From Patiria pectinifera (taxonomy: Eukaryota; Echinodermata; Asteroidea; Valvatida; Asterinidae), in the NCBI GenBank assembly GCA_029964075.1, contig CM057136.1, forward strand, positions 8,308,001 to 8,372,000: a DNA stretch of 64,000 nt, written 5' to 3'. This document shows, piece by piece, positions 10,566 to 62,600 of the stretch. Under the pieces are notes generated by a model, which saw only the letters and a program-made list of their open reading frames with translations, was not told the origin of the DNA and made no database searches. The first letter of the stretch is position 1, and the number at the start of each line of letters is the position of its first letter. Position numbers and translations under genes: made by a program.

Positions 10566-10852
10566 TATAGGCCAAGTCATAGCTCAATCTATACAAGCGT
10601 TTTAGAATTATGATGATTCCACACTTCCGTCGGTGAACGATATTGCTACCTTTCGCGCGCCTACTTGATGCAGTTTTTATACAGTAAAACGATTGTGTCA
10701 AAAACGTCCGCAAGACACCAGGTTGCAAACTCATAAAACCTCGCAAAGAAAACAAAATATAATAGCAATGAAACTGGAAAATGTAAGGCGAGACGGAAGT
10801 CGCCTCAGGCCTCTTTTGATTTCAGGGGTTAAGCTTCCATTCTTAAAATGTA

Positions 10853-11702
10853 CAGGGTGTCCCAATAACCATTGTGCATGAAGAAATCGTTGATTTTCTC
10901 AAAGGTTGGTCAGACTAGCTAGTCAAAGTTTATAGCGTTTTCAAGCCTATGGTCTTGTTTATGATTGGTGAAAAAAATCAAGAAAGTCCAACCATGCAAA
11001 CCAGACATATCATTGGTTTGGTAAGGCTATGTATTTTTCGACCTGCACAGTGTAATTTCCTCAATTAGTATTTGCTTGTACATGTATTTAAACCAATTAT
11101 TAGCTTAAATATGTTTTACACAGTGCTTGAAATATTACATGGCCTTTATGTAAAAAGATTTTTTTTTTGTAAATAAAAGAAGAAACAATATAGCTAGAGG
11201 GTGCGCATTTGATTGTTTATCGAGGAAGAGTATTCAAAAGCACGTGGTAACTGCTCTATTTGCAAATTACTCGAGCGTCAATGTTGTATAGACCCTTTTG
11301 CCATTCTTTGTTATTCTTGCTTAACTACAGGATTCTATAAGATTTGAGGCTTTGCATGATGGAGTAACGGTATCGTTTTGGTTTGCGGTAACACCATGTG
11401 GTAATTACTACTGCTTAGAAGATATTGAAATCTGAAGAGAACTTGTCCTGCTTATTATCAACTTTCGCCAAGTAGTTTTAGTTCTGTTAAGAACAGGATT
11501 CTAATTGTGCAGGAGGAAAATAACATAGCCTTACAAAATTAACGATATCTGTGGTTTGCATTGATGGATTTTTTTTGATATTTTCACCAATTATAAACAA
11601 GACCATAGGCTTTAAAATAATACCAAATTTGACTATCTAGTCTGACCACCTTTTGAGAAAATCAGCGATTTCTTCATGCTCAATGTTTATTGGGACACCC
11701 TG
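10853..11702. mobile_element. TIR element with CAGGGTGTCCCAATAA ends
   Basis: The left CAGGGTGTCCCAATAACCAT is matched by ATGTTTATTGGGACACCCTG at the right. The arms of about 150 bp include GCCTATGGTCTTGTTTATGA on the left and TATAAACAAGACCATAGGC on the right. A 500-bp core has no coding capacity. It is probably non-autonomous, Tc1/mariner-like by its ends; family assignment is inference. Confidence 0.75.
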
Positions 11703-12340
11703 TTTACGACCCTCCTCCTTCGTCTGCGCACCCTAATTTCGAAATCTGCAAAATTCCTGAAACAGAACGTTCCAAAAAAATAAAAAACTGGAGAAAGTTG
11801 GGGCACATTGCCGTCGTTTTGCCGACTGTTTACATTATGTTACCGTGACATCTTCAGACAGAGACGATATTTTTGAAAAGAGGGAACTTGTGTTATCCTA
11901 AGAGGAAAAAAAAGCAAGACATACAACCTTCCAAGCACTCATCTAAGTGCTGTTAGTTATTTCTTGCCGCGGGAGCCTTTTGATTTAAAAGAAGTGAAAA
12001 TGTCCACTCTTTTTCATTCTCTCTCCGAGTTGTTCCTCAGGCAAAACTTTTTTTTTGCATTCTAACTCTTTAGGTTTTTTTCTACTTTTCCAATTTTCCC
12101 GGTGTAAAGTGACTTTTTAATAGTCACTCGTTTTCTCCATGCACTCGTCAACAATTGCCTGGAAGGGGCAGCCGATAGGTTTCGCTCATTCATGATTTGA
12201 TGTAAAAAATATTATGGGGTTTCGATGTCCCTTTCGACGAACGGAAATATCTTGGAAAAATTCTGATGAGGTTAAAGGGGATGTACAGCATTTTCTTTTG
12301 CTGCAGTTTTCACAAATAAATGAATTTGGAGGATCAGTAT
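11703..12340. other. Intergenic; no feature supported
   Basis: I see neither exon wording nor clear inverted repeats here. Confidence 0.5.
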
Positions 12341-13945: not shown

Positions 13946-14533
13946 GTGGAAGACCCTTCGACATGGCCAGTGGACTATGCAAATGTCAGGAGGGTGGGAG
14001 AATTCATGAGATGTATCGCTGGTGAGGTGTTGAGCTCGGTAGATGACACTGTCTTGTTTGATTACACGGCAGAGAATGAACTACCTGTACTAGACAAGAG
14101 CTGGTTTGGAATCACGGGAGGGAAATGAATACCTTAAGATCGTCCTCCTCGTGGTTTTTTGGGTTCACTTTCGTATGTGCATCCTGAAATCACTGCGCCC
14201 TGAGGAGCCCAATAACTCCTCTTTCGAAGATTTCGAAGAGGAGTCACGTATTTGGGGAACCATGAGGAAATAAGAACCACGAATATGGTTAGCAGGACTA
14301 GAGGCCTTTTCATAATCTAGTAATTTAGTGGTGTCGGTGATGGCGTTTTCATATATTGAGGCTTTATTGGACTTGGAGCTATAGCAGATAAGCAGATATT
14401 GCGCTGTGTAACACTTACTGTGGATGTATTGGCTGGTGTGGTTTACTACTTCAGTCTTTGAGGATAGATATTAAAATGTCTGGAGTTCACTTATATCATA
14501 TGATTGTGCTTATTCGAGTGTGTTTAGCACTTA

Positions 14534-15202
14534 TACAGTGTGTCTCAAAGTACCTGCAACTTTTTTTTTCGAGGCTCTAGCGTCAGAGCGGAAACACGTA
14601 CCGGTGTTATTTTTATACCATTTTAAAGCTTGGAATCTGAACTTTATCTCTGGTGAGTATTGGTTTGATATTCAAAGGAGTGTTAACATTATTCGTGCTC
14701 AAATAAAGGCATGTCGAAAACAAACTCAACCGATTTCAAGGAAAATCGATGATGCGGTACAACAGATGCAAAATCGAGTCACAGTTTGAGCGGGCTTTTT
14801 GAATAGGTACATACTTGCCCGTGCATTTCAAAAATAACAAAAACAAAGAACAATATTGTGAATTCATTTAAGATGTAGTCTACGTGGATCGAGAAGAATA
14901 GGAAATACGGGAAGTAAAAGGCAATGCAATCGTCACATCATGAACATGATGAAGCATTCCACATTAGTAAAAAAAAAAATGCGCTCGATTGATTTTCCTT
15001 GAAATCGGTTAAGTTTGTTATTGACATGACTTTATTTGAATACGAATAATGTCAAAACCTTTTTAAATATCACACCAATACTCGCCGTGGATACAGTTAA
15101 GATTCCAAGCTTTAAAATGATTTTAAAAATAGCGGTATGTGTTTCCGCGGCGACGCTAGAGCCTCGCGAAAAAATGTTGCAGGTATTTTAGGACGCGCTG
15201 TA
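14534..15202. mobile_element. TIR element flanked by TA (mariner-like MITE)
   Basis: TA followed by CAGTGTGTCTCAAAGTACCT on the left faces AGGTATTTTAGGACGCGCTG then TA on the right. The arms of about 230 bp include CGAGGCTCTAGCGTC on the left and GACGCTAGAGCCTCG on the right, plus CCGATTTCAAGGAAAATCGA on the left mirrored on the right. The TA flanks fit Tc1/mariner target choice. There is no transposase. Confidence 0.8.
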
Positions 15203-15234
15203 TGTGGAAATGTACCGAGAATATTAGGGAGTAA

Positions 15235-22934: not shown

Positions 22935-23198
22935 CACTTTGAGGTTTTTATAGCGTCAGGCTTGAAAATGCCAACCGTTTAGTGACAAATCTACGGAGTC
23001 TTAGAAGTGCCCTTGATTCACAGGGCAGTCACCGTTGGTAACTAACGTTGGAATGCACTATACTATGCACTTTGAGTTTTTATAGCGTCAGCTTGAAAAT
23101 GCCAACCGTTCAGTGACAAATGTACGGAGTCTTAGAAGTGCCCTTGATTCACAGAGCAGTCACCGTTCGTTACGAACGTTGGAATGCACTATACATCA
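22935..23198. repeat. Two-copy tandem duplication, 133-bp unit
   Basis: CACTTTGAG..TTTTTATAGCGTCAG begins at 22935 and again at 23068. Both units run through GAAAATGCCAACCGTT, GGAGTCTTAGAAGTGCCCTT and CGTTGGAATGCACTATAC. They differ at few positions, so the duplication is young. Confidence 0.9.
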
Positions 23199-23219
23199 CC
23201 TTGGACAACTCCTGCCTAA

Positions 23220-23508
23220 GACCACCAAGAATTCGTCACGGAGAGTTCTTTTTCCCCCAGTGCATTGTGGGAGATGGTCGACAAATTCACAGCGAGGGAC
23301 ATTTGAAATTGTTAGTTTTTCCGGTCAGTAGTTGTTTTAAGGCGGCAGATCCCTATGTCCCAATCTACAACAAATTAGCTCAGACAAGTTGTCTCGTGAC
23401 ACTCATTCAAATGGGCTATGTTTTGTCGACCGTAAACTTGGAAAATGGACTCTCCATGGCAAATTCTTGATGGCGCAGTACTGCATTGTGAATCGCCCGA
23501 ACTAACAA
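23220..23508. mobile_element. TIR element family AATTCGGGCGATTC, copy 1
   Basis: GGGAGATGGTCGACAAATTC on the left and TGCATTGTGAATCGCCCGAA on the right match the elements at 31325-31692 and 62609-62975. This copy has lost the far left terminus. Confidence 0.65.
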
Positions 23509-25536
23509 TCACGACCAAGTGGGAAAGTGATGTTTATTGTGTCACTCACTTTACACTTGCATGAACACAAATGCGTTGGCCGGCATCTTCCGAAATCATC
23601 CTGAGCTTGTTCGTCATTTCATGATAGTTTGTGTGGAAAACACAGAAACACGGATGGTCAGTTAAGGCTTCCGTACGTCACAGTGCAGACTATATTGCCC
23701 GATTTAGTAGGCGTGGGCGGACAATACTGTTTCGGTGAAAACCTCACGGCAACATCAGCTGAAAGGGATAGTTTCCCGATATGAATGGCTTACATAAAAT
23801 CCGAAAAGCAGAGTATAATAAGTGTTTGTACGTGACTTTAAGTAACCTGTTAACAATAGATCCGAACATTTAGACCGGCAGCCCAGAGCATTTTGATCAA
23901 ACGAACGAGGTACCAATATCCAAGCACAGAAACATTTATTGTGTAACCTAGCATATTCATATCTGGATGTCTGCCGGAACCCTGCCATAAAACCAAGTTT
24001 AAATGAACAATTACACCCTACTAGGTATAAAATATCCATTGCCAGACAAATTGTCTGCTGCATAGGGCCCGCCAGACACACCCAAAGTGGATGGAGGGGG
24101 GGGGCGTGGCTGTCACCCCCTCCTTTTCATTTTCGCTGATACGGTTACAACGTGATGATTCACAAAAAAATTAAACTAGTTTATATTGATGCCTTAGCAC
24201 TTGTAGAAAATAAAAATGTAACTTAAGAGTGATTTCAGGTCAGGCTAATTAGTTTAAGAGTGGGGCAGAAAGCGCGAAGGGGGGCGTGGCCGCCACCCCC
24301 TCCGTGTACATTTCGGCTTATATCGTCACAATGCAATTTTTAAATAATGCCAAATTTCTCTGACAGGTGTGCTAATGTCTTGCAGTTATTTTGACACCAG
24401 TTGTATGAAATTAGGGCATATCTTCGTCAACAAATGTTCATTTTCCAGAACAGGTAGGCCTAAGTTAACTTTTCCCATTGAAAATGTACACGTATGCACA
24501 TATGCATGGAAGTGCACTTGAGAGTGGCTCAGGCTAACAGATCGAATTAAAACTTCCCAGATGCAAAAAATACAAATTTATGAGTATGAAAGTAAAACCA
24601 TGTTTTATTGGTGCCTTGGTAGTTTTAGAAAATTACATCGTAAGAATGATTTCAGGTTAGACAAAATTAACGTCCATATCGTCACAATGTGTTTGTTTTT
24701 AATCCTGCCAAGTTTCTCTGACATATTTACTGATGTATTTCAGTTGCTTTGAAACCAATTTAATAAAAATAGAGCACACCTTCGTCGCCAAACGTCCGTT
24801 TTCCAAAACAGGGAAGCCTAATGTTAACTTTTCCATGATCATGTTTAATGTCTATGACAGTGCGCTTGAGAGTGCCGACTTTAGATGACCATGGCAACTA
24901 AATATTTTTAGAGGTTCAATTGAAAGTTCACATATGTACTTCAGATGTCCGGTGGTGTTTTTTTTTTTTTATCTAAGTACCGGTAATTACATTGAAACAC
25001 ACAGGACTAGATTTGACTAGTCATAGAACAGTAACGGCTTTGTGGATTGGGCTGAAGATGGAATTGAATCTTAATGGGCAGCAGTGCAGGGAAATTGAGC
25101 ACATTTTAACACATTTTTTAATGGAATATATGGCAGTATTCACTATTACACCAGTTGTATCCATATCGACTTGGGTAAACCACGTGTTAACTCTATCAAT
25201 CCAACTGGTCACCGTCAGAGTGCGACGTTTGTCCGATGTGCCTGTTGTAAATATTCATTTGCACCTGCTTCGGCATTAAAAGGGGGGGGGGGGGTGGAGA
25301 CCAGAGGATGTGAGAAAATTGTCTCTGGGGTCTAAATTCTTAACAAGAAAAAGGTCGCATTTTGAAGTAAAGTGGGTATACAAAGTTCACTCAGTGACCT
25401 CTTAAAGGTCACCAGAGGTCAGACATGAACTGTCCATATAGCCTATGTGGAAATTCATATCGTGGCAAGAAGACTAGAAGTTTAGATGTTGGTCGTGAAA
25501 AAGTAGGGTTTACTTAGTTAATACATAGTCTACCTG

Positions 25537-25690
25537 ATGTTCCCCAATACCGATGTTTCCCGAGATCCTTAGGATAGAAGGCTAGGGTTAGGCGTAGGGT
25601 TAAGGTTAGGGTTAGGATAAGGGTTAGGGTTATAGGGTAAGGATTTCGGGGAACATTGATATTGGGGAACATCGGTATTGGGGAACAGAA
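25537..25690. repeat. Interstitial telomere-like TTAGGG run between inverted flanks
   Basis: Degenerate (TTAGGG)n spans 25585-25640. Its left flank TGTTCCCCAATACCGATGTT is the reverse complement of the right-flank wording AACATCGGTATTGGGGAACA. It sits in the spacer of the 3.8-kb palindrome. Related loci are at 1-80 and 45452-45520. Confidence 0.85.
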
Positions 25691-27429
25691 GTATGCACCT
25701 GCTCCATGGTTAATATCACCATTGAGGTTTTTCTACCCTCATGATATCACCAAAAACCTTGGGCATTTGAACATTGATCTCTTGAAGCACACCAGAGGTC
25801 AGAGATGGAATGCCCTGCACGAAAATTCTTTTCAAAGCATAAACACCTGCAATTAGAATTGGGTTCTGAAAAAAATTGCCTAAGTTAACTACTTGTAGTT
25901 GTCGAATAAATAGCCTATAAATGTACACAAAAGCCATGGCCTCTATGGCCAATTATGAATGTTTCCATATCGGATCATTACTTATTTTGTATATAGAACT
26001 TAAATTGTATATATATTGTATATACGAATTGTTTGATCTCAAAGTAAACAACTGTTTAAGATGTTTGACTTTAACAGTCGATACTGCTCAATAAGATTCA
26101 ATTCCATCTTCAGACTCAAGTCCCAAAACCACTTTGACTAGTCATCTGCTACCTGTGTGTTGTAATTACTTATAAAGTTTTATAATAAGAGGACCACTTG
26201 ACATCTGTAGTGTAAGTTTTAACTCAACCTTTTATAATGCATAGAAAACATGTCAGAGAAACTTGGTACGATCAAAACATGCATTGTGACAATATACAAA
26301 TGTAGGCACAAATGCACATGGAGGGGGTGGCGGCCAACTCTTTTTGCACCACTCTTAAGTTAATTTGTCTACTCTAAATCTGGCACATTGTAATTTTCTA
26401 AAACTACCAATTAAGGCATAACAAAAACTGGTTATATTTTCGTACTCTTAATTTTAATGCATCTGGGAAGTTTCAAATGAATTCGATCTGCCACTCTCAT
26501 GCATACTACCGGTACCATGCACATGTGCATGTGTGTACATTATCAATGGGAACAGTTGTTCAATTATGAATGGGAGCTCTGTTTTCATGGTTTCAAAACA
26601 ACTAAAATACATCAGTAAACATGTCAGAGGAACTTGGCGCCATTAAAAACAAACACATTGTGACGATATAGACGAAAATACACATGGAGGGGGTGGCGGC
26701 CACGCCCCCTCCATTCTTTTCTTAAATATGTCTAACCTAAAATCATTATTAAGATGTAATTTTCTAAAACTACCAAGGCACCAATAAAACATGGGTTTAT
26801 TTTCATACTCTTAAATCTGTAATGCATCTGGGAAGTTTCAATTCGATCTGTTAGTAGCCACTCTCAAGTGCACTTCCATGCATATGTGCATACGTGTACA
26901 TTATCAATGGGAAATGTTAACTTAGGCCTACCTGTTCTGGAAAATGAACAATTGTTGACAAAGGTATGCCCTAATTTCATACAACTGGTGTCAAAATAAC
27001 TGCAAGACATTAGCACACTTGTCAGAGAAATTTGGCATGATTTAAAACTTGCATTGCGACGATATAAGCGGAAATGTACACAGAGGGGGTGGCGGCCACG
27101 CCCCCCTTCGCGCTTTCTGCCCCACTCTTAAACTAATTAGTCTGACCTGAAATCACTCTTAAGTTACATTTTCATTTTCTACAAGTACTAAGGCATCAAA
27201 ATAAACTAGTTTCATTTTTTTTCGTAATCATCACGTTGCAACTGTATCAGCGAAAATGAAAAGGAGGGGGTGACGGCCACGCCCCCCCCCCCTCCATCCA
27301 CTTTGGGTGTGTCTGGCGGGCCCTATGCAGCAGACAATTTGTCTGGCAATGGATATTTTATACCTAGTAGGGTGTAATTGTTCATTTAAACTTGGTTTTA
27401 TGTGGTACCTCGAATGTTTGATCCAGCCC

Positions 27430-27530
27430 ATTATTTGCCCCCTTCTTTTGGGCCCCAGGGGCCACATGCAGCAGGGGTTCCAGCCCCCTTCTTTTGGGCC
27501 CCAGGGGCCACATGCAGCAGGGGGTTCCCG
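27430..27530. repeat. Two-copy ~53-bp direct repeat
   Basis: CCCCCTTCTTTTGGGCCCCA followed by GGGGCCACATGCAGCAGGGG occurs twice in a row. The block is absent from the opposite arm of the surrounding inverted repeat, so it arose after the arms formed. Confidence 0.85.
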
Positions 27531-27640
27531 GCAGACATCCAGATCTGAATATGTTAGGTTACACAATAAATGTTTCTGTGCTCGGACATTGGTACCTCGT
27601 TCGTTTGACCAAAATGCTCTGGGCTGCTGCTCTAATTGTT

Positions 27641-28440
27641 AAGAATGGTGAAAAAGTAACAATCCAAAGACTTGCATTAAACACCTACACATGCATCACT
27701 TTATTACACATGTTAAGGGGGACGGAATAAATCAACAGACTGCAACAGATGGGATGCATAATTTCACACTACATGAATCGATTTCATCCGAATAAAATAC
27801 TCCCATAATAAGTATCCCATAGGGCCATGCTTAAAACACCGTGACATCCGGCGAGCGTAATTTTTTATTCCCAGGATGGTTATGAATAATTCAGTAGTTT
27901 CGATCGGACCAGTATGTATATTCATGAGAACAGAACAATGACATCAAGAGCCTTAATTGTTGTTATTTAGTCAACCAGTTACACTAAAGCATTTTTAAAG
28001 TACGGACGTCGTCGAGCTACCACACAGTAGCGTAGTGGATAGCGAGATGAGCTATGGATACAAAGATTCCTGGTTCGAATTTACGTCGTCGAGTCGCTCC
28101 CCATTTTCATCGACTGTTATTTTTCTCCAAATTCATCGGTGAGATAATTTTAATTTAAGAGAGAAGGAGAACCTATGTCTTGCAATAATTCAAAGGAAAA
28201 ACTGAATTATTCATAATTTTGCCCCTGCCACTCGTGGGAAAAAAATACGCGTCTGAAAATGTGTTTCCAAATTACTCTAGACGATGGGCGGAGCTTTGAC
28301 GCATCGTGTTGACAGTTTGTCTGAAACAGCATGGCTTCATCACGTATGTCATTTTCGATACACTTATTTCAAACCAATCTACTTTAAAAAGGGGCTCCGA
28401 TATTCAACGTCATAAATAAGACAGTTGACCAATTCCTATT
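27641..28440. other. Intergenic with a tRNA-like segment
   Basis: The stretch at 28027-28092 (+) has A-box-like TAGCGTAGTGGATAGCGAG and B-box-like GGTTCGAATTT, the layout of a degenerate tRNA-derived SINE head. Nothing else is supported. Confidence 0.45.
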
Positions 28441-30770
28441 GGTCAAGGTCCAATTCGATTTCTGGACAGATGTGCTTTTCGGAATGAAATTTCAACGAGA
28501 ATTTGGGGTGAAATCAGTCAAAATAATGATTTTTTTTCTCAAAAAATGTAAGATTTTTGCCTAAATCTTCAAAACATTGGGTGTTTGAATGTTGATTGAT
28601 GCTCCTCTTGCCTTTAAAATAATTGTTGCATAGTTTGGAGAAAGTGATATTTTTTTGGCCAAATTTCCTCAAAAAAATAAAGGCTTACCCCTTGTGTTAT
28701 TTTTTATTTGTCCAAAGAATGGAATTGCTTCAAACTTGCTGGAAAGATGCCTAAAGGACCTTACAACGCATTTCAACACGATTTCTGAACAGATGTGCAT
28801 TTAAGATGAAATTTCGACGAAAATTTAAGATAAAATCTGTCAAAATAATTATTTTGTTCTCTAAAACTCGATGATTTTTGTCCAAATCTTCAACATATTG
28901 GGTGTTTGAATGTTGATTGATGCTCCTCTTGCCTTTAAAAGGATTTCTGCATAGTTTGGAGAAAAGTCATATTTTGGCCAAATTTCATCAAAAAAGTTAG
29001 GCTTACCCCTTGTGTTTGTTTCGATTTTGGCCAAAACATGAAATTGCTTCAAACTTGCTGGAAAGATGCCTAAATGACCCTAGAACACATACCAATTCGA
29101 TTTCTGAACAGATGTGCTTTTCGAAATGAAATTTGCACGAAAATATGGGTGAAATCTGTCAAAAAATAAATATTTTGTTTTTCTAAAACTCGAAGATTTT
29201 TGCCCAAATCTTCAAAATATTGGATGTTTGAATGTTCGTTGATGCTCCCTTGCCTTTAAAAGAATTGTTGCATAGTTTGGAGAAAAGTCACATTTTGACA
29301 AAATTTCATCAAAACAGTAAAGCTTGTGTTTTGTTTTTTGTTTTTTCGGCCAATAAATGAAATTGCTTTTAACTTGCTGGAAAGATGCCCTAAGGACCCT
29401 AGAACACATCTTAATTTGATTTCTGAACAGATGTGCTTTTCAAAATGAAATTGCGACGAAAATTTGGGGTGAAATCTGTCAAAAAATAATTATTTTGTTC
29501 ACAAAAACCCGTTGGTATTTGCCCAAATCTTCAAAATATTGGGTGTTTGAATGTTGATTGATGCTCCTCTTGCCTTTAAAAGAATTTCTGCATAGTTTGG
29601 AGAAAAATTTCATCAAAAAAGTAAGACTTACCCCTTGTGGTTTTTTTTACGATTTTGGCCAAAAAATGTAATTTCTTGAAACTTGCTGGAAAGATGCCTA
29701 AGGGACCCTAGAACACATCTTAATTTGATTTCGGAACAGATGTGCTTTTCAAAATGAAATTTTGGGGTGAAATCTGTCAGAAAATCCTAATTTTGTTAAC
29801 TACAACTCTATTATTTTTGCCAAAATCTTCAAAATATTGGGTGTTTGAATGTTGATTGATGCTCCTCTTGCCTTAAAAATAATCTCTGCAAAGTTTGGAG
29901 AAAAGTCATATTTTGGCCAAATTTCATCAAAAAAGTAAGGCTTACGCCTTGTGTTTTTTTGTGATTTTGGCCAAAAATATGAAATGTTTTGAAACTTGCT
30001 GGAAAGATGCCTAAAGGACCCTAGAACACATCTCAATTCGATTTCTGAACAGATGTGCTTTTCAAAATTTTTGGGTGAAATCTGTCAAAAATAATTGTTT
30101 TGTTCTCTAAAACTCGATAAGTTTTGCCTAAATCTTCAAAATATTGGTTGTTTGAATGTTGATGTGCTTTTCAATGCACAGACTTTCTTCACAGTTTGTC
30201 ATTTTTTTGGCCAAATTTCATCAAAAAGTAAGGCTAACCCCTTAAAAATGAAATTGCTTCAAACTTGCTGGAAAGTTGCCTAAAGGACGTTCAAACACAT
30301 CCCAATTCGATTTTCAAAGAGATGTGCTTTCAAAATAAAAACATTGACGAAAATTTGGGGCGAAATCTGTCCAAAAAAAAAAAGTTCTATAACTCGACCT
30401 AAACCTCGACCATAGAACACATTTCGATTCGATTTCTGAACAGATGTGCTCTTCAAAATGATCTTTCCATTAAAATTTCGGTTGAAATCAGTCAAAAAGA
30501 ATGATCTGTTTCTTTTAAAATTTAATGATTGAATGTTGATTGATACTCCTCTTACTTTGGAAAGAATGTCTGCATAGTTTGGAGAAACTGCTTTTCTTTG
30601 CCAAATTTTATCAAGTAAGGCTAAGCTCTTTGTATTGTTTCAATTTTGGCCAAGAAATGAAACTGGCAGGAAAGATGCCTTCAGGACCCTAAAACACATT
30701 CCAATTCGCTTTCTGAACATATGGGCTTTTCAAAATGAAATTTCGACGACGAGCCTGAGGAACGCACAAT
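28440..30770. repeat. Satellite-like tandem array A, ~320-bp unit, about 8 copies
   Basis: A unit containing CAATTCGATTTCTGAACAGA, GGGTGTTTGAATGTTGATTG, TGCATAGTTTGGAGAAAAGT and CTTGCTGGAAAGATGCCTAA repeats with starts near 28448, 28770, 29092, 29410, 29722, 30032, 30301, 30424 and 30691. The spacing is about 322, 322, 318, 312, 310 and then shortens. Units diverge by substitutions and small deletions toward the right end. Short open frames inside are by-products. Confidence 0.9.
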
Positions 30771-31324: not shown

Positions 31325-31692
31325 CAATTCGGGCGATTCACAATGCAGTGCGCCACCAAGAGTTTGCCATGAAGAGTCAACTTTTCAAGTTTACGTTCGA
31401 CAAAACATGACTCATTTCAATGAGTGTCAGTAGACATTTTGAGCTTATTTGTTATAGATTTGGGCAAAGCGTTCTGCCGCCTTACCAAAAATCACCACAT
31501 TGATAAAAAGAAAAGAAAATGGCAAAGGTATATTCTAATCATACGCTTATGAAACTAGTGACCGGAAAAAAAGAACAATGTCAAATGTCCCGCGCTGCGA
31601 ATTTGTCGACCATCTCCCACTATGCACTGGGAAAAATTAACTCTCAGTGGCAAACTCTTGGTGGCGCACTGCATTGTGAATCGCCCGAATTG
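31325..31692. mobile_element. TIR element family AATTCGGGCGATTC, copy 2
   Basis: CAATTCGGGCGATTCACAAT on the left is mirrored by ATTGTGAATCGCCCGAATTG on the right. The arms include AGAGTTTGCCAT. The internal TTCTGCCGCCTTACCAAAAA segment matches the copy at 62609. Confidence 0.85.
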
Positions 31693-44653: not shown

Positions 44654-47600
44654 CTGGAGATTCGAAACACAAACAAACGAACCGATAATTAAGTTATGGT
44701 TAGTCTGGTTCCCAGACTAAAAGATTCCGACTATTCCTGATGAATCTTAGGTCAGGTAGCCTCCGGTAATACAATGTATTACAATTTACATCACGTGACT
44801 AAAGCGGGAGGAATTCCTCCTTTTTCCGTAAATGTCCGAAGTTTGCCGAATTCATTTCGTCGACTATCGGATAGTGTCCGAGTATTTCCGAGTATAATAT
44901 AGGTTTTATTAACTGCTAATTGCTTATTAAAAACTTAAAAAACTAGTTGATAATTAATATCTTTTGCTTTTATTTAGAAAACTTGAAATTCAACGACGAT
45001 TTTGCACTCGGATCGTATACGAGGGGCGAACTTTTTGCTGCGTCATGCACTAGTTTGAATTTGACGACCGTTACCGGCATTTACCAAAACTCGGCGTGGT
45101 CTCAATTCGGCTCCGCCTGCTTACAGTGCTGTTTGGGTGTCTAACTTTGAAGATTCCAGGTCAAAATTAGTCAATGTTTTCTTACAGAAGTATTAAACTG
45201 TATATCATAACTGTATGATATATGAAGCAAGTGATTTATTTTAAAAAAAAACATGATCGGAACTTTAAAAGCTTTATGTGATAAAGCGAATTCGGAAACG
45301 AAGCCGAGCTTTGAAAAAGGGCCGTCAGTGTCGTCATGTTTATTTTTAGCCACGGAGGCTGCCTGACCTACAATTTAGACGTTTAGACGTCGGGGGAAAT
45401 TGTCAGGTCGGGGAACCAGACTAAGTTATGGTAAGGTTCGTAGCAAAAATTATTAGGGTTAGGGTTAGGGTTAGAGTTAGGGAACATAGGTATTGGGGAA
45501 CATAGGTATACACCCTAACCATTCATATGAATCACTCAGGGTTTTTTTTCTCAATATACTCGATTTGCCACATACAAAAATGGTGAACTTGGGCACAATC
45601 ATCCTGACTCACCCTGTACAGGACGAGTAAAAAAAAAAAGTGAAAACCAAATATCGGGACCATTGTTTTAGTGAAGTTCTGCTTGTAACACTTTCAAAAT
45701 CTAGGATATGAAAGCCCAATTCATAAGCTTTCTTTTAGTACAAGAATCATCTAGATCACTCATGTACTTTTCAAGTTACGGAATTTTAAACACAACCACC
45801 GTTTTAAAGTTCTATCCACGGATCACAAAAAAAAGGTGTGCGTTCTTTCAGCAAAACGAACACAATTCACACACATCCCTATGTTATTCGGTTTCGTTTT
45901 GCTTAAAAAACACTACCTTCTTGTGATCGATGGTTGTGTTTGATATTCCGTAACTCAAAAAGTACATGAGTGATTTGCATGCTTTCTATACCAAAAGAAA
46001 GCTTATGGATTGGGCTTTCATATCCTAGATTTTGAAAGTGCTACATGCAGGACTTCACTAAAACAATCGCCCCGACATTTAGGTTTCGCTTTTTTGGACT
46101 CATCCGGTACTTACGAACAATGGCCCAAGCGAGGAAATGATCCTCCCCTAAAAATATATTATCGCTATGAAACTGGTGATTGTCAAATAAAAGAAACAAA
46201 CATACTTATTTCTTTGAGGTGAACATCATCCGTCAAATGACGGTCTTTCCTGAGGGACACGGACATGGGCATAATCTCCGTCGAGTCCGAGGTGGGGAGC
46301 TGCAGCAGGGGCACGGCGCTGCTGATCGGAGCGGAGTCTTCGGCGGCGCTGTTCGAGCCCTCCGCGTCCGAACACTCCCCGTACGGTAAACAGGACAGGT
46401 CCAGATAGTCCTGCAGATCATCGAAAACAAATTCAATCTCGAGAACTGTCGCGCAATACAACTGAGACATAATGACGTCAATTAAGCTTTGTTTACATGA
46501 GTGCTTTCTTATGGGAGTTTGGTGGCTCATTGTGCCCACCTAGCTCCCACGGGAACGCCCATAATTTTGAGAACAAAGTGTGACGTCATTATGTTTCAGG
46601 GCCATAGGCAGTGTTGTAGTCCAAAATAAATTCATCACAGGCCCCATACAATTATCCCGGCACCATCTGTGACAGAGTGCACCCCATGTCCCTCTACCCT
46701 ACCCACGTCCTAGACTACTGTGTAGCACGCCCCCAAAGACATCTCAAATAGAATTCTGAGATTCTGGAAACACAAAGACCAACACACAAGAGGGGGGATC
46801 CCTCTGTCATATATCTTGCTACATATGTACCAATAAGTCATAAGTCAATTCCAAAGCCCAGTCACAATTAACATGGGATGAGCAATAACAGAGCAATGCT
46901 TTTGTAGCAGTTCACTTGAACAGCGTGTGACTTCAAATTAGTCTGGATGATGGACACGTGGTGCATTGTGAGGATATCGCAAGTCATCACTAGACCGGTG
47001 ACCAGTAATTCACAGGCCCTTTGGAAGTTACAGTCGCGAGAAACAGGAGTCAACAATCACTCATGAATGCTAGCTTGCGACTTCAATCAATCAATCAATC
47101 AATCCACTTCAATACCTGCAATAAGCCATTTGCGTGTTAAATCTGAATAAAATCTGGCACGCTGACTTAATCCAATGCTTTGCACTTTTTAAGTTTGCAT
47201 TCTCCCGACCAAAGAGACTGTTACTATATCATGTGGTTCGGGGCAAGCCTTATGCTAGCAACCCCAGCTCCGGCATGGTCTGGTGTCTTTGTGCCATTCT
47301 CACCCATTGTGAACAATGTATTGGTGCTGAGCGTCTCTCACGTAACTATGCAAGAGCTTGCCCCGAATCATGTGATTAGCAACAGTGTCTTTGGTCTGGA
47401 GAATTCAAGGTTAAAATGTGCCAAGCATTCTGAGCAAGTCAGTGTACCAGATGTTTTTCAAATGTAAATCCCAAAGGGTGTAGGTTACTCGCAAATGGCT
47501 TATTGGTCAAAAGGTTGCCTCTTGGCGTGAGTCTACATTATGTGGCACGATATGTGAAAGAGGGACCCCCCCCCCTCTTTTGTGTCGGTCATTGCGTTAC

Positions 47601-53600: not shown

Positions 53601-56600
53601 AAATACAGGCGTCCTAAAGATAAGGATTACCAAATGAATAAAGAAAACCCCCGTTCTCACCTTGCTTGTCTTGACGTAGGTGCCACTCTCGTACAGATCT
53701 CTGGCCAGTCCAAAGTCCGACACCTTGATCACCATACCCTCGGCCACCAGGATATTCCTGGCCGCCAAATCTCGGTGGACAAGCTGAACGAGAGAACAAA
53801 AAGCCACAAATTGATTTTCGAAACCCTGCAGTGTGATGCCGGATTTTCTGCATATCATGCAATTTTTTTCCAACGATTGAGCGCGCTGTAATAACACCAT
53901 TTAAGGATACAAATCGTCAGGGCTTCACGAAGGGGAACAGCAACGCATGTTTTGGCAAAGTTTTTTGGTCAAAATCAGTTTAAATCAACAAAATCATGAG
54001 TCAATGTAGGTAAAATTTCACCTGAATCATATTTTGTGTTTTCACGAAGCGGCAAATTCAAAGTCTATCACGTTGCACTATGGGGCAAAAACAATGCACT
54101 TGCTGAATCTAAGCTTTCACACAGGGTATGGGTAATGGGCATTAGCAATTTGCCAAAACATCAGGCGTGTGGGATTTTGAGTTTTCAGGAACAGACGAAT
54201 CTCTATGGAGATCCATTAGTACACAATTTATTGTTTTATAATACTGTAAGTGGTATATATTCAAAGTTTAAGATCTCAGCTTACTATTGGTGTCAAAAAT
54301 TAGTCGACATGTGCTCTAAAAATAGGCGAAATCTTTATTTCAAAAAGTGACCAACTTAAAACTTGTTATTCTCAAACCACTGGTCAACACCCGTGGCCCG
54401 ATTCGTTCCCTTCGTGAAAACGCTGACGAAATAGACGTTTCAATTATTGATAGCTGAGCTCTTGGTATTAATTGGTACTTGTAGAAAATCTTCGTAAATT
54501 CTCCGTTAAGCAGGCCTACAAGAGAGTGGAATCTATGACTCGATTTTGAATGGTTATCGCATTGTACATGTTGTAGTTGCCTATAACTGTCACTTAAAGG
54601 TATAGTCCATCAGTTGTTATTTGTGCATTTTGTTTGTTTGAAGCAACAAACGTGCTCAAAAATCTAAAGAAGGGTGCTGAACAATTAACCTGATGAAGTT
54701 TCAGCTCAGCTTCGGCCATTGTCAGCTGTATATTCCGAGAAAAACAACATTCTAGGATCTCGACTTCAAATCAAAAGTTGCTGAATCATGTTTTAAAATT
54801 GGGCCTGAATTCAGTGTCTGAGACTCATTCTCACTGAGCCGATTGCAGCTACGCGATGTCGTGCACCGATCCGACATTCATAGGTTTGTAATCGATTGCA
54901 AACAAGTGCAATGGTCAATTGGGGCCAGTATTTGAGAAACAAACTACTAACGCAAATTTCCAACGGTGCATCTTAAGACGCACCGTTGGAAAGGCCTTCT
55001 TTCGTTGATTTCTTCAAAATGTCAGCTTGCCAGAAAGAATAATTTCACTGGGAGTTTATTCCCCTTACTATCTTTCAACCAAGTATGTTTTTCAACAATA
55101 ATTACGCCAGTTACTTTTTGGGTAGCTGCAATTGATGGACTCTGGCTTTAAACAGCTGGTGAGGACGAAAATAATAACAGTCTGACGAAGATGGTTTCAT
55201 ACCTTGACGCTTCTCGGAAGGAATAAGTGTTCAAGTGTTGATGTTGAGATATGGGTTCTCTCAAATTGTTGTTGTTGCCTTTCCTTGAAACCCTAGTTTC
55301 AGGCACCAGGATGTGACTAAAATCTATTGTGATAATGCGACGCGTGATTTTGAACAGGGCTGTAATCTGGTCGTTATCACGCCTCATTGGAGGGTGTTTG
55401 ACTTTGTGACTGGCTCCACAAAAAGCTATTACAACTGCTGTGCATTATCGTGTAATGGTCCGCTCAACATTGAGAGGGTGAACATTTTGTCAAAATGTGA
55501 TTTTCATTTTTTGTCATGAATGACATCTTTATTGCCTACAGTTTCAGGTTTCATTCACAGAAATGTTGATTTTGATGAATTAAGTGGAAAACAATAATTA
55601 TTTTGTGTGCACCGTTCTGTTGTTCTACAACAGAGCCAGCTATTTCAAAGCCTGTTTTCTCAGCTGTGTAATTTGAACTCCAAGGAAGTAATTAATATGC
55701 AAAAAAATTATGCGTCATATCTCCAGAACGGGAGGGGCTATGGGAGCTCTGATACCAAATGAAAGCTTACGTTCTGGGCTTTCCAACCATGCATATAACT
55801 CAATATCACTTTTTTGCGACATAATAAGGGAATAAATGTGTGTTCGGGAGGTATTATAACACTCTGTTTAAGACCGGTGGGAGTCTGGATGGGTGATGCC
55901 GAGGGTAATTATCACCCATCCAGACTCCAACCGGTCTTAAACAGAGTGTTTAATACCGACCGAACACATCTTTATTCCCATTCATAAATACCTTTTCGGT
56001 AAAAAAAAACAAAACTTTTCCCTTCCAAAAATCAAAACAAGTCAAGAACTAGACGTTGCCAACCATTTTGTTCAACAATTTTACTTCATGTTTTACAAAA
56101 CACCCCTCTGACTATAATATGGAATGCCCTTCCACAATTAGTTACCTTATAAGGACATTGGCGTACGCGTTGCGTGTACTGCGCGATGTCCCGCAAAACG
56201 CAGCTGGGCTGGTGTAGTGTGAATTTCGGACCATGAAATACTGATTCACTAGTAGTACATTGCGCATGCATACGTGAGGAATGTGAACGTTCAACGTTAC
56301 AAGGCATCGGATTTCATGGGAGTCCAAATTTCATGCAACACTGGAAAAGTGTTTAAGACCAGCTGGCCATGTCTTTATCATCCGTTTAAGACCGGCCACG
56401 TGACAGGCTCTCGACCAATAGGAATGCGTAAACTGTCTTAGGTATTTATGAATACCCTTTTTTGTGAAGCCGGTCACATTTAAGGCTGTCAGCATGTTGG
56501 TCACTGTCCTGGTTTTTGAGTAATCTCCACAAAGAAATCTTGCAGGTCTCCTTTGAACATTCTCAAGAGATCATATGGGATTCACTTTTTATTATATTCT

Positions 56601-59600
56601 AAGAAGCAATGCTGAAGTCCAGGTGTGGTTGCACAAGTTTGAAGTAGAGTATCGATTATTGATGCGGAGTATGAATATAACACTTCATTGATTAAAGCTT
56701 TAGTCCCTCATTTGCAGCTATCCGAAAAGTAACTGGCGTAATTATTGTTGAAAAACCTACTTGGTTGAAAGATAGTAAGGGGACTAAACTCCCTGTGAAA
56801 TTATTCTTTCTGGCAAGCTGTCATTTTGAAGTAACCAACAAAAGAAGGCCTTTCCAACGGTGCTTCTTAAGACACACTGTAGAAATTTAAATTAGTAGTT
56901 TGTTTTGTTATTGGGCAAAGCACGCGCAAGCATTGGCACAACGCACACGCGGTTGCTATAATTCGTCGGATCAGTGTGTGACATCCCGTTGCTGCAATCG
57001 GCTCAGTGAGAACGTGTCTCGGCCGCTGAATTCGGGCCCAATTCAAAACATGATTCAGCAACTTTTGATTTGAAATTGAGATCCTAGAATTCTGTTTTTC
57101 TCGGAATATACAGCTGAAGCTGAGCTGAAACTTCATCAGGTTGGTTGTTCAGTACCCTTCTTTAGATTTTGAGCACTTTTCTTGCTTCAAACGAACAAAA
57201 AACACAAATTACAAATGATGGACTATATCCTTAATAAACCTCAGTTACAAAGGAGACGTAGTCACCTTCAGCATTGCCAAATATTGCATCCCTTTGCATA
57301 TCTGCCAGGCGAAGGACAGCAGATCCCGATTGTTCCAGACGATCTGGGCCCTGGCGGCTTCGTCGTGAATTTTGTCGTAGATGTGCAGCGAAGCGTCGTC
57401 GTCCTGATCAACAGCCGTCGAGCGGTTCCGCCGCAGAAAGTCGCGAAGGCAGCCGTGGCGGCAGTATTCCACGATGACATAGAGTGGACCTGCCGGAATA
57501 TAATCAATTGCATAATCGCTGACGGCTGAACAATGCTCAAGTCTGGTAGACTTCAAAATTTAAAAAAAATGATTGTTGTCTTTACGGTGAGCCAGCTTAC
57601 CTTTTTGCGTTGACGCACCCAAAAGCTTGACAACGTTTGGATGGCTCAGATCCTTGAGGAGGTTCATCTCGGTAATAAGATCTTGCAAGTCATCCGCGGA
57701 GTATGAACCTGAAGCGCAAAATTAGACATGAGCGTGGGATTGCAGGAAGATCGACTATTCAGTTATTTGATAGACTATGCCTGACTCGATGAGGGCATCT
57801 TGAACAGCGCCCCCGTTGACAGATGGTGTTTAGTCCAATGCACCTTAAGCAGCGCCCCCTTGAGTCAGATTAAGGTCCATCCCCTCCCACGTGTCTCGAC
57901 ACACCATGTACCTGTAGTGTTGTAGTCGCGGTGGTTACGAAGGATCACAAGTCATCACAAGTCCATCACATGTAAATCGCACATCTTCCAGTCCCAAGTT
58001 AACTCGTGGGTTATAATAATAATAATAATAATTACCCTGGATTGGACATTTGGGAGACATCCCCACAGACTTGTGCACAACATTTTTTTTAAACTTAAAT
58101 GTGCCCTAACCCAATATTCCCTTGTCCTTTTTCCACGAATTTCGGTATGTTTACTATCAGACCACAGATTATTTGCATGGATTATTTGCTGGAGGTAAGT
58201 AATCCTCAAGCATTCCTTTGGTATTCTTGATACCGGCGTTACTTGTGGCCGGACTTCACATGTACTTGTGACCAATGTGATTGAAATTTACAATGCAAAA
58301 CTTCCACATTACGTCATATAATATGAAAACCTCAAGTCCTCTATCCAGGTCTTTAGTCTCTGCATGTAAAAAAAAAAAAAAAAAAGTCTGTTACCTTCCC
58401 AGCATTGAACAATGCCGGTACCATTTTAACACTCTGTATGTATGCTAACTAAACACTTGAACGAACTCTTTGTCAAATGACGGACTTCAACATCTAATGC
58501 TTGGTTCACACATTCCCAAATTATTGCCACGAATACCTTGATGTATCCCGAATAAAAATTAATAATGGCATCATGAGAAATTAACCCCGATTCGCTGTTT
58601 GTAAGAACAACTTAAGAATGGCACAAAAATAATCACACACTAGGAACGAATTGGAAGCCAAATTAAACCGAACCAAGCTGAATGATTGCGATTTAGTGCA
58701 GAATAAAACTGAATTGTCAAGAATAACATATGAATAACTCAAGAATCATCCAGAATGACCCAGAATTTTGCCGATTTAGTGTATTTGTAAGTTATTCTAA
58801 TAATATTTATACATTTCTTGATACATTTGTAATGATTCGGCACGATTCTGGACTGTTAGCACCTAAAGTAACTGTACAAAACTTGTAAGAATGCTGTACG
58901 AATATCCAGAATGCTATAAGAATATCCAGAATTACAGTTATGAATACAACAAGAATATAAACCAAGATTTAAAATTGGTTTCCCCGAATCACCCCGAAAA
59001 TTTTGAACATGTTCAAATTGGTCGGGGCGCTTCCTGATCTTTCACGATCTTTCACCGAACTAACACAATCATCCTGAGGCAGCCAAGAACCATCCAAGAT
59101 TTACTCAAGAATTGCTACTCTTGGCGATTCGGCTTAAAAAAATGGGGAATGTGTGAACCTAGCATTAAATAACTGTATGGAAATTGTAACAATTTCCAGA
59201 ATCCTGTAAGAATATCCAGAATTAGTTATGAATACAACAAGAATAAACCAAGAATTGAAATTAGTTCCCGAATCACCCCGACAATTTTGAACATGTCCAA
59301 ACTTATAAGATGGAATTTTTGCGCCGGGGTGATATAAATCAAATTAGGTTTTGCCTTTCACCAACGTTTAAACACTGTATACTCAGTGTGTTACTTCCCG
59401 AGTGAAAGTTGAAAAAAAATAACTCGGGTGGGACTCAAACCCATGACCTCCTGCTTTTTAGTGCAGATGTCTTACCACTCGACCACCGAGCTAACGGGAT
59501 CGGTTGGCCAGTTTGAATCTAATGTAACACACCGAGTATACAGTGTTTACGTCGGTGAAGGGCAAAACCTAATTTGATGTCCAAAATTGTCGTGGCGCTT

Positions 59601-62600
59601 CCCGATCATCTTTCACCGAACTAACAGAATCATCCCGAGGCAGCCAAGAACAGCTCCCAGATTTACTCAAGAATTGGTATACACTATTGACACTTACCTT
59701 TGAGCATTTTCACAGCTACCGTGGTGTACCCAGTGTGTCCCCGTAGGCTGAGTGCCTGGGCCCGCACCACGCAGCCAAACTCCCCCTCCCCGAGGACCTT
59801 GTCCAGCACAAGATTCCGACGAGGAAACTCCCACTTCGGGTCGAACTAAAGACAAACGAGGACATTACAAAATTCTAGACATTTTTCACTTTCTGGACAC
59901 TGTCACGAGATTTCGGACGGATATAAACACCCATCCTACATTGATGTACGCACGATACAGGTTGTAGTCGAAAACCAATTAATAAAGGTATATTGCATGT
60001 GGGGTTTTGGAATATTTTCAAATTACCTCTTGAAGTCAGATAACCAATCCACCATACAAACTTTACTTACGGTGCGTCTTAAGACGCACCGCTGGAAAGG
60101 CCTTCTTTCGTTGATTACTTCAAAATGACAGCTTGCCAAAAAGAATAAATTCACAGGGAGTTTAGTCCCCTTACTATCTTTCAACCAAGTATGTTTTTCA
60201 ACAATAATTACGCCAGTTACTTTTCAAATGGCTGCAAATGATGGATTATAGCTTTAATTCCATTAATGTTAACAACAAGAGTTATTTATGATCAAAAGTA
60301 GGACTTGTTTTTTTTTGACACATAGTATATAAAACCTGCTCGAACAGGGGAAAATCAGTACAGACCTCAGTTTTTAACCGTGTGACGGAGCCCTTGCTAA
60401 GATGCAGCCCATCGTCTGAACACTCTGACAGCACCGAGTTGAGGCGCGAGTCCGACCCCCCGATGAACACGGGCGGCTTGTAGTCACGACTAGAGAAGAG
60501 CCGTCGGAGTGGGGAACCGCGACTGGCCCGTTTGTAGACGAGGACAGCAAAGGCGCACAACACCAAAAAAGCCATCACTATAGCGATCAGGCTGTTACAG
60601 TAAGTACACTCATCGGTGCTAGATCCGTCTGGCTGGGAGACTAAGAGGCTTGGGCTCACTGTTGTCAGAAGTGAATAGGGAACCAGACCTATTGTGGTTG
60701 CTGCACATACAAAAAACACCAACGATTATGCGACTTTCATAATGCTGTCCGGTACCGTGCCTTGGTGAAAGTCAGTTCTGCGCAGTGGAGCGTCCCTCGC
60801 CATTTACATTCTGTGGCGTGGGTTCCAATCCCACCCAAGCTGATATTAGGCCATCAGCCTGGGGGTTTGGTCAGTATCAAATCAGGGCATCAATGATTAG
60901 GATGCGCAAGGTATGCCGCCCCTAGAGTGGTAACAAGCATTTTGATTAATTGGAATCTCGGTGTACACAGTGTAACAGTTTTGACTTTTTTTGTGGAAAC
61001 AATTATTCAAGGCGCATGTTGCAAACATCGTTTAACATAATTTAGTATAGGAAAAGATTGAGGCGAGTGAGTGGGATCGGATTGGAGTCGTGTCTTGATA
61101 CGGAGCGGTTATTTTCATTTTATCTTATATTTATTATTATTTTTTGTTGGGGGGGGGAGGATATTCGGTAGATGGAAATAGGTGCAAGGAATGATATTCA
61201 AGGGAAACCAAATCGAAAAGAAACTAAACTGCCGATGTACATATATGCCATCAGCCTCGGTCCAAAATTTTGTCCACCGGTATCAAATGAGGGAAATAAT
61301 CGTCATAGCGATTTTTGGCAAGGTATACACCCCTGTAGTTGGAAAAATACGTAATAGCATTGCAGTGGTTGCAGCTTTTCGGGTGTTTTCGGGTGCTTTT
61401 TTTTTTAAATGGCGACCAAAACATGCTTGTTACCACACATAAGTAATCCGGTAACAAGCATATTGGCGGCCATTTTGAAGAGAAAAAAAACAATTAAAAG
61501 TGATAACACCAAAACAACTGCCACCGCTCACACTGCAAAGTTATACACATTTTCCAACTCTAGATGTGCATACGTTGCCAAAAATCGCTATGAACATTGC
61601 GCCTTTCGATCATTTGATACCGGTGGCCCAACTCATGGATCGAAGCTGCATCAGGTGTTAGTGCTTCTAGTGGCCTGTAAACTCGGAAAGAATACAGTAC
61701 TTCTAGCCTTACACTCTTATCTTGTTAATCCCTTTGTCAACAAACTGGCCCCTGTTATCAGATAAAGCTGCTAATCCCCAGTCAATATCAGCTGTGTGAC
61801 AGCACATGTGGCTTTATTAGACTAAGTGTTAGGGATTATAAAGCCACTGCTTGGACAAAAGGATTAAGATAGATGAGAGGGCTGGCCAGTTTACAGTTAG
61901 ATTGACTGCTTTCTCTCGGAAGTTTCTAGTGGAGGTTACTCGCAATGGATAGCCTAATACGTACGATCAACACGTTGCTGCAGCACGGTGGTGTGTCGTT
62001 GCAAATTGACGGGCAGCCGTCTGTGTATACACGTGCACCCCGATCCATCGAAGTCGCAGGAGCACGGGCCTATGGCGCTCTTGATGCCCACGTTGTTGCC
62101 ATTTAGCGTCATAGAGAACACTGGACTGGCACCCATTGTCTCTACATTTTCGGGAAAAAAAAAGGATAAATAAAAGGAGAATGAAACAAAACTATAGCCA
62201 GTACATTTTGGGCGTCTGCATGCAGCCTATATTAAAAACAATGCTTCTACTTTTAAATGCTTTTGCGGACAAAGAGATCCACCCTTCGAGTAGACTGGTT
62301 CCCGGTTTCCTTAATTATAGATTCTTATAGAAGCGGAAACTTGTCTTATCTGTGCAGCCAGAAAAAAATATTGCAGGGCTGCCAACAATGCCAAATCTGT
62401 AGGGAATTTAACTCAACAAGGGCTGATTGTTATCGTTTGAATTAGCCTCATTTGTTTAACAACCTCTGTATTATAAGAAGAAAAAAAATTATTATCTATT
62501 TTGGTATTTACACACTGGTAAAAAGTATGGGCAATATGTATTAAAGCTGTTGGTGTTTGCCTGTGCCATGAAACATGCACCTTTGTGTTTGTCTATAAAT

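Follow-up and report, generated by a model that had tools for sequence, protein, structure and literature searches.

A probable non-autonomous foldback-type transposon with tandemly repeated inverted arms in Patiria pectinifera

The segment at positions 23865-27640 of the window (the whole 64,000-nucleotide stretch analyzed here) is very probably a non-autonomous DNA transposon of the foldback type, a class assigned on architecture and not a superfamily. Foldback elements are described as having long terminal inverted repeats (TIRs) that contain tandem repeats and enclose a middle part of variable makeup (PMC4079207; PMC3573991; PMC3688188). First, we found long inverted arms of ~1.2 kb on the left (23865-~25085) and ~1.6 kb on the right (~26080-27640), the outer 0.9 kb of which were 93.8% identical. 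Second, each arm consisted of a tandem series of units whose number differed, with three units in the left arm and four in the right. Third, the middle, a spacer of ~1 kb, appeared non-coding in a Pfam scan of the ten longest of 36 reading frames. The original prediction had held that this structure does not match a standard TIR transposon, which is correct for a plain short-TIR element, but the architecture does match the described foldback class. It is an ordinary kind of mobile element with well-preserved outer arms, and its architecture has precedents.

Apart from a near-fixed GC core, the element is also ordinary as a genomic feature. The feature of interest is this palindromic 24-nt site, which was nearly fixed in four of five unit comparisons while the units themselves had diverged to ~63-73%. 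Both chromosome inversions and new satellite DNA have been associated with foldback elements, and what their long repeated arms are for is still debated; with a near-fixed core, the idea that the arms provide additional transposase binding sites can be tested directly.

Table 1. Positions of the parts of the element within the window, from left to right.
Feature	Position	Strand	Description
Candidate left TTAA target site (weak)	23850..23853	.	TTAACAAT shared by flanks
Left terminal domain	23865..24104	+	inverted match to 27284-27640; CAGCCCAGAGCATTTTG starts at 23879
Left U1	24100..24279	+	180 nt, shortened; core 24100-24119 with 2 mismatches; 93.9% to right U1
Left U2	24280..24671	+	392 nt; intact core 24280-24299; to right U2 92% (BLAST), 94% (multiple alignment)
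Left inner (third) unit	24672..25085	+	414 nt; U3/U4 hybrid without GC core
Spacer	25086..26079	.	hairpin 25531-25677; degenerate direct repeat 25392 / 25772
Right U4	26080..26343	-	264 nt; decayed core
Right U3	26344..26709	-	366 nt; intact core 26690-26709
Right U2	26710..27105	-	396 nt; intact core 27086-27105
Right U1	27106..27286	-	181 nt; core 27267-27286 with 1 mismatch
Right terminal domain	27284..27640	-	has a 117-nt stretch missing from the left arm
Candidate right TTAA target site (weak)	27639..27642	.	TTAACAAT shared by flanks

Inverted arms, spacer, and edges

The limits predicted originally for a 3.8-kb inverted repeat, 23865-27640, agreed with the inverted pairs recovered in our repeat analysis. 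The outermost pair (23865-23982 and 27523-27640) was 92% identical, the pair 23986-24104 and 27284-27402 was 100% identical over 119 nt, the pair 24164-24529 and 26856-27221 was 96% identical, and, with further pairs besides, the inner ends of the arms (25052-25081 and 26084-26113) matched at 93% identity. The largest inverted pair spanned 822 alignment columns and scored 1070 bits, compared with 44.6 bits for the best inverted match among 100 first-order random sequences modeled on positions 23000-28500. The innermost arm matches were separated by 1002 nt, as expected for the predicted 1-kb spacer.

When 23850-24760 was aligned with 27642-26585 allowing for gaps, 836 of the 891 positions aligned in the outer arms were identical, leaving 55 differences and seven gaps, the two largest of which (117 and 47 nt) both fell in the left arm. 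Differences numbered 0-5 per 60-column step until the last two steps (the final one of 51 columns), which had 7 apiece, and divergence between the arms grew toward the spacer, with identity of ~94% outside and 72% in the innermost arm alignment (24983-25081 and 26169-26084). High arm identity had been taken originally as a sign of gene conversion or recent mobility. The one suggestive test, the longest identical run between the arms, lends gene conversion weak support: the run was 126 nt long and was matched or reached in 223 of 20000 shuffles.

The same alignment bears on whether the structure is an assembly artefact in which two haplotypes of one locus were joined head to head. Arm divergence of 6%, together with indels, is near the allelic divergence of some marine invertebrates, as illustrated by the heterozygosity of 3.2-4.2% given for amphioxus (PMC12500494). 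A join of this kind would be expected to give a more even identity, however, and not one that declines toward the spacer; the unequal unit numbers, the 1-kb spacer between the arms, and the position of both outer limits at the same terminal sequence also argue against it. We consider a haplotype join highly improbable.

A 46-bp tandem duplication (27437-27528) lay within the 117-nt stretch specific to the right arm. We also considered whether this block contains a partial copy of the terminal domain and set the idea aside, as 10 of 500 120-mers from the window, arms included, scored equally well. The 17-nt terminus CAGCCCAGAGCATTTTG occurred twice in the window, once in each arm, and had no match beyond the arms within the window at ≤3 mismatches. 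A 26-nt form of the terminus had 0 matches in viral, bacterial, and archaeal contigs, a set that holds no animal sequence. Such arms could also come to face each other if one repeat had inserted twice, independently and in opposite orientations, each time with a tandem array, and the window has many dispersed and adjacent repeats. The outer terminus and the order of units were the same on both sides, however, and the inner ends of the arms matched each other, which makes two separate insertions improbable and favors a single foldback-type element.

Outside the arms, the flanks did not align except for TTAACAAT, which was common to both 40-nt flanks in inverted orientation; at least 8 nt were shared by 75 of 3000 random flank pairs. 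The candidate TTAA edges lie at a consistent position on both sides, with CAAT next to each, and the right arm then needs a 13-nt gap. No convincing target-site duplication was found: the best exact direct repeat between the 60-nt flanks was 7 nt long, and we rejected it as a target duplication because 552 of 3000 random pairs equaled or exceeded it. Target duplications in the Mutator superfamily are ~9 bp, compared with this best exact flank repeat of 7 nt.

TTAGGG-like repeats lay between the arms of the hairpin in the spacer, and the two copies of the degenerate direct repeat, 380 nt apart, were 64% identical over 111 columns. Short relatives of the hairpin were seen at 3-51 and 45452-45514; all three have GGGGAACAT..GGTATTGGGGAA motifs, and two of these three sequences adjoin TTAGGG-like repeats. 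Thirty-six stop-to-stop frames of at least 45 amino acids overlapped the element, the longest of 135 amino acids, and no Pfam family was found at cut-off in the ten longest. This ten-frame scan covered frames of the spacer and gave two weak matches there (E 0.076 and 0.095), which we dismissed as chance, both being below the curated cut-off.

Tandem units of the arms

Units were delimited by cutting at the GC core and were numbered from the outside inward. The unit length of ~380 bp in the original prediction is borne out by the spacing in the right arm (366 and 396 nt), but U1 is just 180-181 nt long in both arms. Alignment showed that U1 consists of the start and the end of a unit, with the middle missing.

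In one alignment of all seven units, U1 and U2 were each 94% identical to their partners in the opposite arm (over 180 and 385 positions, respectively). The third unit of the left arm was 68% identical to its positional partner, right U3, and 77% identical to right U4; all other unit pairs were 43-74% identical. Bootstrap values in a tree of the units were 84% for the U2 pair, 100% for the left third unit with right U4, and 100% for the U1 pair versus the rest. When the left third unit was divided, its nucleotides 1-112 were 83% identical to right U3 (112 columns) and its nucleotides 195-410 were 65% identical to right U4 (218 columns), and a 47-nt gap sits where the core would be. Because its start matches right U3 and its end matches right U4, this unit looks like a fusion in which approximately one unit was removed.

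Taken with the unit tree, the identities of U1 and U2 between the arms indicate that multiplication of the units preceded the last homogenization of the outer arms, whether the arms were made alike through inverted duplication or through exchange with each other. We interpret the arms as very long TIRs enlarged by tandem duplication of a ~380-nt unit; the U3/U4 hybrid in the left arm suggests that units may later have been lost or fused through unequal exchange.

The palindromic GC core

By eye, the core reads GTGGC-C-GCCAC within runs of G and C, forming a 5-bp palindrome about one base. At ≤3 mismatches it occurred five times in the window, where 0.01 occurrences were expected; all five were inside the arms, and none was found elsewhere in the window at this threshold. 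A core had been predicted in each unit, and five of the seven units do contain one, but right U4 retains a half-decayed sixth copy and no core is present in the left third unit.

Conservation of the core was assessed in five unit comparisons out of 21 possible pairs; these have units in common, so they are not independent of one another. The 24-nt core matched at 23, 22, 18, 22, and 24 of 24 positions in these comparisons, and in four of the five it was unsurpassed by any other 24-nt window; in those four pairs, the core matched at 22-24 of 24 positions and the rest of the units were 63-73% identical. In the fifth comparison, right U3 versus right U4, 49 of 343 windows beat the core (18 of 24), and the remainder was 51% identical.

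This pattern fits a protein-binding site, and by analogy with the THAP domain of Galileo, the likeliest binding protein would be a transposase. We suppose that a transposase from a relative elsewhere in the genome recognizes the outer termini, that it may also recognize several sites in each arm via the repeated palindromic core, and that it would then cut and paste the element. The core presumably also resembles a KLF/SP-type CACCC/GC box; its conservation therefore need not reflect a transposase, and the binding protein could instead be a host KLF/SP factor.

The original description of the core as self-complementary agrees with the palindrome seen by eye but not with folding, as a 41-nt stretch around the core, treated as single-stranded DNA, had a z of -0.91, and 40 of 200 shuffles folded equally well or better. 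This test gave no support to a role of the core as a hairpin or cruciform. It also bears on a reading in which the arms are kept because, once transcribed, they form a long hairpin RNA that enters small-RNA silencing or editing, with transposon origin being secondary. The outer ~0.9 kb of the arms, being 94% identical, would presumably be able to pair in such a transcript, yet the strongest conservation between units is in the short GC core, which pairing does not explain, and the core alone folds no better than shuffles. We regard maintenance of the arms as hairpin RNA as extremely unlikely and retain the foldback transposon as the preferred reading.

Genomic setting and relation to known elements

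The window contains a RET gene on the minus strand, with exons at 48.1-63.8 kb. Its cysteine-rich domain lies at 63.3-63.8 kb (RET_CRD, E 1.2e-25; four RET chains matched in the Protein Data Bank), and pattern matches placed kinase motifs at 59.8, 53.8, 51.0, 49.4, and 48.1 kb. These exons mark the window as animal DNA, and an origin in bacteria or phages was rejected on that account. Relative to the last RET kinase exon identified, the foldback element lies ~20 kb downstream. A tRNA-like sequence with an unclear anticodon was seen at 59420-59492.

Several other repeats occur in the window. Directly left of the foldback element, at 23221-23501, is a partial copy of a MITE-like element of ~367 nt, two further copies of which (31325-31692 and 62609-62975) are 89% identical to each other; the copy at 31325-31692 has 62-nt inverted ends starting with CAATTCGGGCGATTCAC. 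Approximately 0.8 kb past the right arm, a tandem array at 28450-30750 has a 319-nt unit in 5.5 copies (TRF) plus diverged copies; a relationship between this array and the arms was rejected, with best matches at E 0.51. Two elements at 10852-11703 and 14533-15203, which appear mariner-like, have inverted arms of ~200 nt (84% and 82% identical, respectively) and ends ACAGGGTGTCCC and ATACAGTGTGTC. A second long-armed element (54594-57234) is located between two RET kinase exons; its inverted arms are 82% identical over 568 columns, TTAA is present at both edges followed by AG and GG, as Kolobok requires, and a portion of the arms is found again at 60068-60258 with 91-92% identity. Whether the foldback element has the most unusual architecture in the window, as was claimed originally, is arguable, as this long-armed, TTAA-flanked element shares the window.

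Like Kolobok or piggyBac-type elements, which target TTAA, the foldback element has a weak candidate TTAA site at both edges, marginal relative to chance. Kolobok ends are described as having 5'-RR next to TTAA (PMC9587614), whereas both ends here have CA beside TTAA. It is possible but unlikely that the element represents an undescribed foldback group, with a TTAA target, CAAT...CAGCCCAGAG ends, and a mirror-repeated palindromic GC site as its main recognition signal, in which arm growth was selected for adding binding sites. Among the matches listed, by their titles and abstract openings, there was no published description of the element itself.

As a non-autonomous foldback-type transposon, the element is most readily compared with Tetris and Galileo. 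Tetris of Drosophila virilis is described as having a flanking domain, tandem repeats, an inner domain, and a non-coding middle, and its alleles vary in unit number (PMC4079207). Compared by architecture and not by sequence, Tetris is likewise non-autonomous, with a middle lacking apparent coding capacity and the same overall plan, but its host is Drosophila virilis, its repeat unit is ~220 bp instead of ~380 nt, and its account reports target-site duplications of 8-10 bp, none of which were found here (PMC4079207).

Galileo, a foldback-like member of the P superfamily, has TIRs of up to ~1.26 kb, and one long copy is reported with TIRs that are 95.2% identical (PMC3573991). A P-type transposase is described for Galileo, whereas neither a coding region nor a clear target-site duplication was found here. 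In one Galileo subfamily, the TIRs contain ~210-bp tandem repeats, in numbers that may be unequal between the two TIRs of a copy (PMC3573991), and the Galileo THAP domain is reported to bind sites inside the TIR tandem repeats (PMC3688188; PMC3573991). The likeness of the two elements, which rests on architecture and not on sequence comparison, consists of long TIRs with tandem repeats of unequal number, and in Galileo these repeats hold secondary transposase binding sites.
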